This document shows positions 25,201 through 27,932 of a stretch of 64,000 bases of DNA, piece after piece (position 1 is the stretch's first letter; every line of letters starts with the position of its first letter). Below the pieces are notes generated by a model that was not told the DNA's origin, made no database searches, and was given only the letters and a program-made list of their open reading frames with translations. The stretch spans positions 19,025,227 to 19,089,226 of the forward strand of contig NC_092096.1 of NCBI RefSeq assembly GCF_045679555.1. The letters run 5' to 3'. The translations under genes and the position numbers were made by a program. Origin of the DNA: Salvelinus alpinus. Lineage: Eukaryota > Chordata > Actinopteri > Salmoniformes > Salmonidae.

Positions 25201-27932
25201 ACATTGTCTGTTCCCTGATGGTACTACCCCTCTCTGCTTCCTGTAGTAACCTTGTCTGTTCCCTGATGGTACTACCCCTCTCTGCTTCCTGTAGTAACCT
25301 TGTCTGTTCCCTGATGGTACTACCCCTCTCTGCTTCCTGTAGTAACATTGTCTGTTCCCTGATGGTACTACCCCTCTCTGCTTCCTGTAGTAACATTGTC
25401 TGTTCCCTGATGGTACTACCCCTCTCTGCTTTCTGTAATAACCTTGTCTGTTCCCTGATGGTACTACCCCTCTCTGCTTCCTGTAATAACCTTGTCTGTT
25501 CCCTGATGGTACTACCCCTCTCTGCTTCCTGTAGTAACCTTGTCTGTTCCCTGATGGTACTACCCCTCTCTGCTTCCTGTAGTAACCTTGTCTGTTCCCT
25601 GATGGTACTACCCCTCTCTGCTTCCTGTAGTACCCATGTCTGTCTCCAGATGTAGACTGCTTCTATGTCTTTGCTTGTGTCTGTCTTCTCTCTTTCAACA
25701 CTCAATAACCAACTCTACAAGAACATACAATTCTAATCTCTCTCTCTCCTCAGAGAGAGGAGTTAACAGAGGTGATTCTGAAGCTGTTGGTAGCATGGAA
25801 GGATCCTCTGTGGCAGTTCCACCAGAACATGGTTCACCAGGATGACTTCAACAACTTCAGCTCCAACAAAGCACTGGAGATGAGCTACATGGTGCACGAG
25901 CTCCGCAAGGGAGTCGAGAAGGTGGCTGATAGGGTAAGAGGAAGACGGGGGGAGGTGGCTGATAGGCTAAGAGGAAGACAGGGGAGAATGTGGCTGATAG
26001 GGTAAGAGGAAGACGGGGGGAGAAGGTGGCTGATAGGATAAGAGGAAGACGGGGGGAGAAGGTGGCTGATAGGGTAAGAGGAAGACGGGGGGAGAAGGTG
26101 GCTGATAGGGTAAGAGGAAGACAGGGGGAGAAGGTGGCTGATAGGGTAAGAGGAAGACGGGGGGAGGTGGCTGATAGGGTAAGAGGAAGACAGGGGAGAA
26201 GGTGGCTGATAGGGTAAGTGGAAGACGGGGGGAGAACGTGGCTGATAGGGTAAGAGGAAGATGAGTGAAGGTGGCTGACAGGTTAAGAGAAAGATGGAGG
26301 GAGAAGGTGGCTGATAGGGAAAGAGAAAGGTGGGGGAGAAGGTGGCTGATAGGGTATGGGACGGTTGAGCTAGCATAGGCTAATGCGATTAGCATGAGGT
26401 TGTAAGTATCAAGAAAATTTCACAGGACATAGACATGTCAGATATTGGCAGAAAGCTTAAATTCTTGTTAATCTAACTGCACTGTCCAATTTACAGTAGC
26501 TATTACACTGAAAGAATACCATGCTATTGTTTGAGGAGAGTGCACAGTTATGAACTTGAAAAGTTAATAATAAACCAATTAAGCACATTTGGGCAGTCTA
26601 AATACAAAATGTTGAACAGAAATGCAATGGTTCATTGGATCAGTCTAAAACTTTGCACAAACACTGCTGCCATCTAGTGGCCAACATCTAAATAGCGCCT
26701 GGTCTGGAAAAATACATTATGGCATTTGTCTTGCATTTCAAAGATGATGGTACAAAAACAATACCAAAAGAATCATGTTTTGTCTTTGTACTATCTTTTA
26801 CCAGGTCTAATGTGTTATATTCTCCTACATTCATTTCACATTTCCACAAACTTCAAAGTGTTTCCTTTCAAATGGTATCAAGAATATGAATATCCTTGCA
26901 TCAGGTCTTGAGCTACCAGCAGTATGTCATTTTAGGCAAAAATTGAAAAAAGGGGCAGATCCTTCTACATAAACATTTCTACTTGACTCTGCAGCTCAAT
27001 TCTAGAAAAGAATCATCACTTGAATCCATCATTACTATTTGTTGTTAAGATGATTATGTTGAATATTGCCTATGGCTTTCTGTAAGAGTTATAATGTGAA
27101 ATGTCTCACAGATTACGAAGTGTGTATGTCACTAAATTAATCACAGAGATGAGGGGGAGAAAGACAGAGAGAGAGACAGAGAGACAGAGAGACAGAGAGA
27201 GAGAGAGAGAGAGAGAGAGAGAGAGAGAGAGAGAGAGAGAGAGAGAGAGAGAGAGAGAGAGAGAGAGAGAGAGAGAGAGAGAGAGAGAGAGAGAGAGAGA
27301 GAGAGAGAGAGAGAGAGAGAGAGAGGAGAGAGCAAATAAGGCAGAGTTAGCCTTGAGCATACATACTATAGTGACAGTGAGTGAGTGTGAAAGAGAATGA
27401 AAGAAAGATATAGATAGTGGGAGAGAAAGTAAATTAAAGCAAATAAGACAGAGTTAGCCTTGAGCATACTATAGTGAAAAGAGAGTCCTATAGCAGCTTG
27501 ATTCCTAGTGACATTGTGTAGACTAATGTTGACACCATCACTGAGTCAGTGACGAATGCAGATGCCAACCAGGATGTCACTAGACAATCCTCGCTCTGCT
27601 ACTGGGTTGGCATGTGATAGCTCACAAGAGAAGGCACACACACACACACACACACACCTCATTTTGCAATATGTACAGAAAGTAAAATTCCTTGTCTCTA
27701 ACAATCCACTGTCTGTGTCCCTCCCTCTCAGATGCAGCACCTGGGGATGATCAGTAACTCCCTGAGTGGCCTGTCCTCCCCTGAGGCCTTGGACCCCTCG
27801 TCAGACACCAGCGGAGAGTCCCAGGCCATGAGCGACCACGACCTCCTCTACTGCTTCAGACGGGACTCCAACAAGGTCCAGAACTACCTGAAGATCCTCA
27901 AGTGCAGGATCGTACCTGAGAACGGATGCTGA
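4232..27932 (+). CDS. prl2: prolactin 2 gene (tetrapod-like prolactin), five exons
   Basis: A secreted four-helix cytokine hormone of the prolactin/growth hormone family, which acts through a single-pass prolactin receptor. The joined exons (25+185+108+180+201 nt) give 699 nt, 232 residues and a stop, with every junction in phase. Residues 1-29 form a signal peptide (hydrophobic core [12 protein letters not shown], likely cut before APIC), leaving about 203 mature residues. The six cysteines (33, 40, 88, 207, 224, 232) fit the three disulfides of tetrapod prolactin: 33-40, 88-207 and 224-232. The N-terminal pair ([10 protein letters not shown]) is missing from ordinary teleost prolactin, which points to prl2. 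Other family marks are [30 protein letters not shown] and [10 protein letters not shown]. There is one N-glycosylation sequon at N140 (NFS). Exon phases match human PRL, including the 180-nt exon 4. The gene looks intact. What is unusual is the intron content: about 17 kb of tandem arrays. Confidence 0.93.
4285..4472. repeat. 7-bp minisatellite (AGCAGGG)n in prl2 intron 1
   Basis: About 26 units, changing from AGCAGGG to ACCAGGG along the array. Its right flank (4,473-4,572) matches the right flank of the upstream array, 3,527-3,754 less the retroposon insert. From 4,573 to 4,743 there is unique intron sequence. Confidence 0.95.
4747..5515. repeat. 38-bp minisatellite in prl2 intron 1
   Basis: About 20 units of CTGTCAGTGTCAGTGTTGTC plus TCTTCTCCTTCTATCC. 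Variants lack one TCAGTG (32 bp) or carry an extra CATCCTCTT. It is open in all three + frames ([13 protein letters not shown] repeats) because the composition lacks stops. It does not code for protein. Confidence 0.95.
5650..6462. repeat. 80-bp minisatellite in prl2 intron 1, about 10 copies
   Basis: Each unit has a pyrimidine tract ending CTCTCTCTGCCAG, then about 21-24 bases, then GGTGAGACAGG. It therefore carries an acceptor-like and a donor-like sequence around a very short pseudo-exon. The array ends 130 bases before the real exon 2 acceptor. Confidence 0.95.
6593..6777 (+). CDS. prl2: prl2 exon 2
   Basis: Acceptor CTCTCTTCCAG|CG, donor TTC|GTAAGT. It encodes residues 9-70: the rest of the signal peptide, the two N-terminal cysteines ([10 protein letters not shown]) and helix 1 ([18 protein letters not shown]). 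It ends on the SEF that also closes human PRL exon 2, in phase 0. Confidence 0.95.
6838..18490. repeat. 11.6-kb minisatellite in prl2 intron 2, about 240 copies
   Basis: The unit is about 45-52 bp: TCACTAATGACACAG, TCCTAGTCTC, then a long (TC)n run and GTATGTCT. Variants differ in the length of the TC run and in GTCTGTC, GTCTCTGTC or GTCTATC. Rare variants (CCTACTCTC, CCCAGTTTC, CCTAGTGTC) recur in the same order about 2.71 kb apart (for example 13,303 and 16,016; 14,097 and 16,812), which shows large block duplications. The few 60-88-residue frames within it are artefacts. Confidence 0.97.
18491..18619 (+). other. Unique remnant of prl2 intron 2
   Basis: About 130 bases of non-repeat sequence between the large minisatellite and the LINE. 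No gene or motif was recognised. Confidence 0.6.
18787..20030. repeat. 18-bp minisatellite inside the LINE 3' UTR, about 69 copies
   Basis: The unit is GAGGCTATATACAGTAGC, with variants TATAAAGTAG, ACATACAG and AGTAGA. Eighteen bases make six codons, hence the long frames on both strands (SLLYIA, VYSLAT, RLYTVV repeats), which are not genes. Related LINE tails at 48,655 and 60,685 have only one AAGGCTATATACAG, so the array grew after insertion or in this lineage of the element. Confidence 0.96.
21367..22572 (-). pseudogene. LINE ORF2 remnant: endonuclease end to start of RT
   Basis: Longest open piece (about 401 codons) of the LINE polyprotein. It contains the end of the AP-endonuclease domain ([20 protein letters not shown]), a linker ([20 protein letters not shown]) and the first RT motifs ([38 protein letters not shown]). 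A second piece at 20,770-21,279 holds the rest of the RT, with [11 protein letters not shown]. The two pieces are separated by stops, so no working enzyme is made. Confidence 0.9.
23275..24141. mobile_element. MITE with GTTCACCCAAAT inverted ends, filled by a 24-bp array
   Basis: The left end AGTGATAGTTCACCCAAAT and the right end ATTTGGGTGAACTATCCCT are inverted repeats (about 22 of 24 positions). This is a widely spread fish MITE terminus. Almost everything between the ends is the 24-bp minisatellite. It lies next to the 5' end of the LINE. Confidence 0.75.
23330..24112. repeat. 24-bp minisatellite with a donor consensus in every unit, about 32 copies
   Basis: The unit is CAGTCTATTGTCAAGGTAAG plus ACAG. 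Each copy contains AAG|GTAAGA or AAG|GTAAGG, close to the ideal U1-paired 5' splice site, with ACAGCAG shortly before it. The + frame QQSIVKVR and the - frame DCCLTLTI are open only because the unit is eight codons long. Confidence 0.95.
24142..24288 (+). other. Unique 3' end of prl2 intron 2
   Basis: Non-repeat sequence ending in the pyrimidine tract CTTTCTTCTTCCCTCCTTCAG that forms the exon 3 acceptor. Confidence 0.6.
24289..24396 (+). CDS. prl2: prl2 exon 3
   Basis: 108 nt and 36 codons, phase 0 at both ends, with acceptor TCCTTCAG|GAG and donor GCT|GTGAGT. It encodes residues 71-106, including C88 ([13 protein letters not shown]), which pairs with C207 in the conserved large-loop disulfide. 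The [10 protein letters not shown] end corresponds to the PEDKEQAQQMN end of human exon 3. Confidence 0.95.
24439..25633. repeat. 48-bp minisatellite in prl2 intron 3, about 25 copies
   Basis: The unit is GTACTACCCCTCTCTGCTTC, CTGTAGTAACC, then TTGTCTGTTCCCTGATG. Two units have a six-base insertion (CCCTTG) near 24,664 and 24,864. The unit is 16 codons long, so frames stay open on both strands ([16 protein letters not shown] and [16 protein letters not shown] repeats). Each unit carries a pyrimidine-rich tract followed by TAG. Confidence 0.95.
25754..25933 (+). CDS. prl2: prl2 exon 4
   Basis: 180 nt, 60 codons, the same size as exon 4 of human PRL. Acceptor CTCTCTCCTCAG|AGA, donor AGG|GTAAGA. 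It encodes residues 107-166, covering helix 2 and the start of helix 3 ([44 protein letters not shown]). Its last 12 bases are the seed of the tandem array that follows. Confidence 0.96.
25922..26358. repeat. Minisatellite made of copies of the prl2 exon 4 donor junction
   Basis: About 12 units of 33-38 bp, each with GTGGCTGATAGGGTAAGA (the final exon 4 codons plus the 5' splice site) and a GGAAGACGGGGGGA tail. The first unit is the real exon-intron junction. The second unit has CTAAGA in place of GTAAGA; most later units keep the donor. Confidence 0.93.
26385..27100. mobile_element. Dispersed repeat-like sequence in prl2 intron 4
   Basis: A/T-rich sequence without an open frame. I recognise parts of it (AGATATTGGCAGAAAGC, GCAATGGTTCATTGGATCAG) as a repeat common in salmonid genomes. 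The class is uncertain and the ends were not defined. Confidence 0.45.
26669..26680 (-). promoter_or_regulatory. CTCF-like core motif
   Basis: The reverse complement reads CCACTAGATGGC, a full match to the vertebrate CTCF core as usually written (CCASYAGRKGGC). It lies inside the dispersed repeat of intron 4. Occupancy is unknown. Confidence 0.4.
27158..27327. repeat. (GA)n microsatellite
   Basis: About 170 bases of nearly pure GA in prl2 intron 4. The ERER and LSLS frames across it are artefacts. Confidence 0.98.
27634..27657. repeat. (CA)n microsatellite
   Basis: Twelve CA repeats about 75 bases before the exon 5 acceptor. Confidence 0.95.
27732..27932 (+). CDS. prl2: prl2 exon 5 and stop
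   Basis: Acceptor CCCTCCCTCTCAG|ATG. It encodes residues 167-232 and a TGA stop. It holds the loop before helix 4, helix 4 itself ([22 protein letters not shown]) and the C-terminal disulfide pair C224/C232. C207, C224 and C232 sit where the last three cysteines of tetrapod prolactins lie. The in-frame ATG at its first codon is internal and is not a start. Confidence 0.96.
   Translation: MQHLGMISNSLSGLSSPEALDPSSDTSGESQAMSDHDLLYCFRRDSNKVQNYLKILKCRIVPENGC

Follow-up and report, generated by a model that had tools for sequence, protein, structure and literature searches.

The prolactin-family gene in a stretch of 64,000 nucleotides (nt) of the Salvelinus alpinus genome (contig NC_092096.1, positions 19,025,227 to 19,089,226; hereafter the window, in which all coordinates are counted) contains a minisatellite that starts inside exon 4, crosses the boundary with intron 4 and continues into the intron, repeating the exon end together with its splice donor in units that in part keep and in part break the reading frame. 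Judging from the letters of the DNA, we consider it probable (roughly 0.7) that a duplication across this boundary was followed by growth of the array, that the first donor is used almost exclusively and that the array itself is close to neutral.

The array was placed by Tandem Repeats Finder (TRF) at 25,916–26,356, with a period of about 36, 12.6 copies and 88% matches, and takes in the final 18 nt of exon 4. Its repeated motif, GTGGCTGATAGG followed by GTAAGA, is the end of exon 4 plus its donor in tandem, and about half of each unit of approximately 36 nt is exon and half intron sequence. When the window was searched for the 18-mer GTGGCTGATAGGGTAAGA with up to 3 mismatches, 13 copies were encountered at 25,922–26,359, all on the plus strand, against a mean of 0.08 and a maximum of 2 in 100 dinucleotide-shuffled controls. 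The exon-derived 12 nt are present in all 13 copies, with a single change, in copy 11, and a longer stretch of 18 nt (GAGAAG plus these 12) occurs in seven of the 12 downstream copies, as it does in exon 4. Complete units number 12, with lengths of 33, 35 or 36 nt. Units 1 and 7 are identical, as are units 3 and 5; units 1–3 are 0, 2 and 2 edits apart from units 7–9, and units 10–12 are the most diverged. A previous reading of this stretch, made from its letters only (the sequence-only reading), had proposed just such a serial duplication of the exon 4 end and its donor, which these counts bear out, although its figure of about 12 repeats has to be raised to 13. It placed the first donor at 25,933, which is the last exon base; the GT itself is at 25,934.

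In the spliced model, five coding exons on the plus strand (exon 1, coding part from the ATG, 4232–4256; exon 2, 6593–6777; exon 3, 24,289–24,396; exon 4, 25,754–25,933; exon 5, coding part with stop, 27,732–27,932), with GT and AG at the ends of all four introns, yield a protein of 232 amino acids. Exon 4 is 180 nt long, of phase 0, and ends in GAGAAGGTGGCTGATAGG; as had been claimed, only the first donor gives this conserved exon, and the model built on it is the sole one of full length. The protein matches the Pfam family Hormone_1 (E 3.2e-36, residues 21–232, profile positions 8–215 of 215), so that the somatotropin/prolactin domain covers the whole chain; it also matches human prolactin (1rw5, E 3.3e-31), and its eight best matches of solved structure are prolactins. 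By its predicted protein, the gene is a member of the prolactin family. We tentatively take it to be prl2, a name that comes from the label of the earlier reader and from the resemblance in exon count and length to a gene of another fish. In tongue sole, prl2a is given 5 exons and 235 amino acids, compared to the 5 coding exons and 232 amino acids here, and a table of the same paper lists prl2a and prl2b as genes of about 2 kb each (PMC11855606).

The donors were scored with frequency tables, and their pairing with U1 was calculated with a U1 5′ end. Copy 1 (25,922–25,954), which carries the real exon end, has a score of 4.5 and a pairing energy of −8.9 kcal/mol; the remaining true donors, three in number, have scores of 0.7–1.8, and copy 1 surpasses them in score as well as in pairing. 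The GT is kept in nine of the 13 copies and the exact 18-mer in seven, and eight copies score at least 4.5. Copies 3, 5, 6, 7, 8 and 10 have the same values as copy 1, copy 9 (GTAAGT) is the strongest of all (6.1, −10.8 kcal/mol) and the partial last copy 13 (26,342–26,359; GTATGG) is weak (2.0, −5.6 kcal/mol). In copies 2 (25,955–25,989), 4 (26,026–26,061), 11 and 12 (diverged units, together 26,271–26,341) the GT is replaced at the expected place by CT, AT, TT and GA, respectively. An off-register donor-like site, AAGGTGGGG (GT at 26,330; score 4.6), lies within copies 11–12, and a weak site AAG/GTGGCT (1.7) is found at the start of nine copies; in copy 1 it falls inside exon 4. The claim that the repeated donors are of equal strength thus applies to seven of the 13 copies and fails for the stronger copy 9, the weaker copy 13 and the four that lack a GT. 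Copy 1 is a strong donor, yet its own sequence does not set it apart from its neighbors and, therefore, position, exon length and the context of the upstream exon must presumably decide which donor is chosen.

What a choice other than copy 1 would entail follows from the unit lengths, since copy 1 alone yields the normal protein of 232 amino acids. Copy 2 lies in frame (+33 nt) and would insert 11 residues, but it carries CT; the frame is first lost at unit 2 because it is 35 nt long, which shifts the frame for copies 3–8. Copy 3 (25,990–26,025) has an intact donor with its GT at 26,002, adds 68 nt and shifts the frame, all of which the sequence-only reading had correctly given. Its predicted product is a chain of 194 amino acids that ends at a stop 16 nt beyond the junction, in exon 5, and thus a truncated chain lacking all 66 exon 5 residues could be made. 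With copies 5–10 (26,062–26,270; all with intact donors) and 13, premature stops are predicted 71–351 nt before the last exon junction (71–247 nt for copies 5–10). Stops more than 50–55 nt ahead of the last junction trigger nonsense-mediated decay as a rule, and these copies are consequently predicted to lead to RNA decay instead of protein. The suggestion that some transcripts make a C-terminally altered hormone is, therefore, narrowed to copy 3 among the eight downstream copies with a GT, the other seven being predicted to give decay. A single unit of 36 nt reads open and would add 12 residues, and an array that consisted of 36-nt units early on could thus have been harmless.

For the origin of the array, the exon part of its first unit is informative. 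It lies in frame in the sole gene model that gives the full hormone, and the residues at the exon end (through EKVADR) align without gaps with human prolactin over a stretch that extends one residue beyond the junction and holds few identities; its register is, therefore, that of the ancestral coding sequence. Together with the exon bases present in all copies and GAGAAG in seven of the 12 downstream ones, this alignment points to a duplication across the exon 4/intron 4 boundary as the most likely source of the array. Copy 13 runs on into a different intron sequence, GTATGGGACGG, and unit 1 equals unit 7, so that the founding unit may have been unit 1 or another; the ancestral intron may have started with either GTAAGAGG or GTATGGGA.

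Our preferred explanation starts from the tandem duplication of a segment of approximately 36 nt, about 18 exon and 18 intron bases, that would have straddled this boundary. The array would then have grown by slippage or unequal exchange, probably including the copying of blocks as suggested by the resemblance between units 1–3 and 7–9, while the first unit remained attached to exon 4 throughout the turnover, preserving the reading frame and one donor. Copy 1 would be used almost always, since the shortest exon and the normal exon context come with it. The downstream copies, although able to pair with U1, would mostly be ignored or give non-productive RNA, and for that reason the array would be close to neutral.

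Several observations weigh against this explanation. Six further copies equal copy 1 in donor strength and copy 9 exceeds it, and of duplicated donors of equal strength the one nearer to the 3′ end of the intron can be favored. In addition, changes relative to copy 1 are unevenly spread over copies 2–12: only 1 of 132 exon bases is changed, compared to 8 of 132 in the 12 intron bases that follow (Fisher p 0.036), a difference in rate that is not predicted by plain neutrality. It becomes 1 vs. 14 of 144 (p 0.0007) when copy 13 is added, but this is a partial copy, the intron side of which may never have been part of a unit. Furthermore, four of the nine differences in copies 2–12 are located in the two GT columns out of 24 (p 0.004) and four of the eight on the intron side in two of the 12 intron columns (p 0.03), both post hoc and in line with selection against rival donors. 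The units are few, related and not independent, which limits any test of this kind; chance, the removal of rivals by selection and homogenization by way of copy 1 could each account for the pattern.

If the downstream donors were used at a real rate, the array could act as a splicing rheostat, in which copy number tunes the amount of full-length hormone, copy 3 giving the truncated chain and copies 5 onward decay-prone RNA. The GT kept in eight of the 12 downstream copies, of which six match copy 1 in strength and one exceeds it, fits such a role. So do the dense G-runs on the sense strand of the array (47.6 per kb vs. 7.6 in the window), since G-runs are a feature of intronic splicing enhancers; no G-quadruplex motif with loops of 1–7 nt was found in the array, and four were when loops of up to 15 were allowed. 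The IFI6 gene also offers a precedent (PMC4526556). However, the use of downstream donors here is hypothetical, the copies that keep their GT are predicted to give truncated or decay-prone products, and copy 2, the nearest competitor, and copy 4 have no GT; we regard this role as unlikely. Slightly less probable still is a stronger version of it, a length-variable dial in which each extra unit would be another U1 site that diverts transcripts, alleles of the array would set prolactin-2 output and the missing GT of copies 2 and 4 would be a trace of selection for the normal form.

The clustering in the GT columns could alternatively mean that the losses in copies 2, 4, 11 and 12 were left by selection for an unambiguous use of copy 1. 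We consider this improbable, as the test was chosen after the data had been seen and treats related units as independent, copies 11 and 12 belong to the most diverged units anyway and copies 3 and 5–10 retain their GT. An origin in the opposite direction, i.e., an array that began within the intron and only later replaced the end of the exon through conversion, would be compatible with the identity of units 1 and 7, which suggests that the exon end may have taken part in exchange with the array, and with the passage of the last copy into other intron sequence. The register shared with human prolactin, though with few identical residues, makes it very improbable. Intron gain from AGGT-type duplications, such as the multiple 24-bp duplications in fission yeast genes (cited in PMC4974935), can be rejected, as no sense acceptor in the array reaches the threshold and the best scores −4.3, compared to 7.2–11.0 for the true ones.

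Minisatellites that carry splice donors have a precedent in human IFI6. The repeat of that gene has units of 12 nt that remain in frame and add few residues, and the copy number of minisatellites of this type varies between individuals. Unlike this, the units here are 33–36 nt long, those of 35 nt break the frame and four of the 13 copies lack a GT, and any use of the downstream donors is hypothetical. The IFI6 (6-16, G1P3) minisatellite reportedly provides multiple splice donors, as the title of a report by Turri et al. of 1995 has it (Nucleic Acids Res 23:1854). According to a later paper, two downstream repeat units act as donors in IFI6 (PMC4526556). Both genes have a tandem repeat with donor-bearing units near an exon end. 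By this analogy, the array belongs to a kind of repeat that is rare but has been described before.

A tandem duplication that likewise crosses an exon–intron boundary and carries splice signals with it is described for a potato RdRp gene, in which the 3′ end of an intron and the start of an exon were duplicated and a new intron arose; in the prolactin gene it is the 5′ splice site that was copied 12 times, with no sense acceptor at threshold (PMC4974935). The growth hormone gene of the seabream Sparus aurata, which belongs to the same hormone family, also has tandem repeats of varying number in its introns, but the text that was seen describes no exon end plus donor within them (PMC3045353). 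An exact 24-mer had 0 matches in the collection genome_contigs, and the protein had 3 pattern matches in viral_contigs, of which none is a relative; fish genomes are absent from both collections as described, and these outcomes are therefore uninformative on relatives. Our literature searches, in which the listed papers were only partly opened, identified no serial-donor case other than human IFI6. Nor did the titles and the first parts of abstracts on salmonid prl2, on minisatellites in prolactin genes and fish introns and on salmonid minisatellites describe an array in intron 4 of prl2, subscription papers being mostly outside this coverage. The array would, therefore, be the second such case after IFI6. 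A row of near-identical donors behind a single exon amounts to a natural experiment in the choice that splicing makes among equal sites, and because wrong choices are here predicted to be truncated or decay-prone, fidelity would be readable directly from RNA. On its reverse strand the array has 13 acceptor-like sites, so that an antisense transcript across it would meet serial acceptors.

Tandem arrays are abundant throughout this gene. They make up 73% of its span of 23.7 kb (4232–27,932) vs. 23% of the remaining window when all TRF rows are taken (37 merged intervals), and 73% vs. 21% for a chosen subset. Their share of introns 1–4 is 76%, 78%, 89% and 34%, respectively, and a 49-bp array at 6828–18,489 measures 11.7 kb on its own. 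In every intron of the gene, the distance from the donor to the start of the first array lies between −18 and +50 nt, and 110–399 nt ahead of the acceptor are free of arrays, which fits a tolerance of arrays wherever the branch site and acceptor are spared. No splice site of the gene other than the donor of intron 4 is crossed by an array.

Splice-like motifs also occur in other introns. The 80-bp array of intron 1 (5716–6456) holds ten stretches of 21 nt, each flanked by an acceptor-like AG upstream and a GTGAGA donor downstream; the five that were translated all keep the frame and three would lengthen the signal peptide by VSVLLLA or VSVLLMA, for which it may be labeled a putative serial pseudo-exon array. 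In the 24-bp array of intron 2 (23,328–24,108) most units contain the strong donor-like AAGGTAAGA/G (29 sense sites at threshold in 32.5 units, none antisense), and in the 48-bp array of intron 3 (24,439–25,643) most contain the acceptor-like CTCTCTGCTTCCTGTAG (21 sense sites at threshold in approximately 25 units, none antisense). A scan of 24 arrays picked from 56 TRF rows, with thresholds of at least 4 for donors and 5 for acceptors, found sense sites in five of the nine arrays in the gene (48 donors, 49 acceptors) and antisense sites in two (9 donors, 13 acceptors). The nine threshold donors of the intron 4 array are eight in register plus the one at 26,330. Of 15 arrays outside the gene, two had a total of 19 sense acceptors, and one antisense acceptor each was found in two. 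A general excess of such motifs in the arrays of the gene is, therefore, suggestive, yet five vs. two arrays are too few to serve as evidence.

Further boundary duplications were rejected as well: when six unit consensus sequences (the 7-mer, 18-mer and AG arrays being left out) were compared with eight splice-site neighborhoods, using 200 shuffles each, four of 47 pairs, which omit the intron 4 array against its own boundary, gave p < 0.05 (0.035–0.045), whereas approximately 2.4 are expected, and three of the four are mostly pyrimidine runs. Part of intron 2 (18,610–23,250), which includes the 18-bp array at 18,785–20,030, resembles by eye a retrotransposon in reverse orientation. Outside the gene, 23 copies of an 84-bp unit at 42,922–44,862 resemble, also by eye, zinc-finger coding repeats on the reverse strand.

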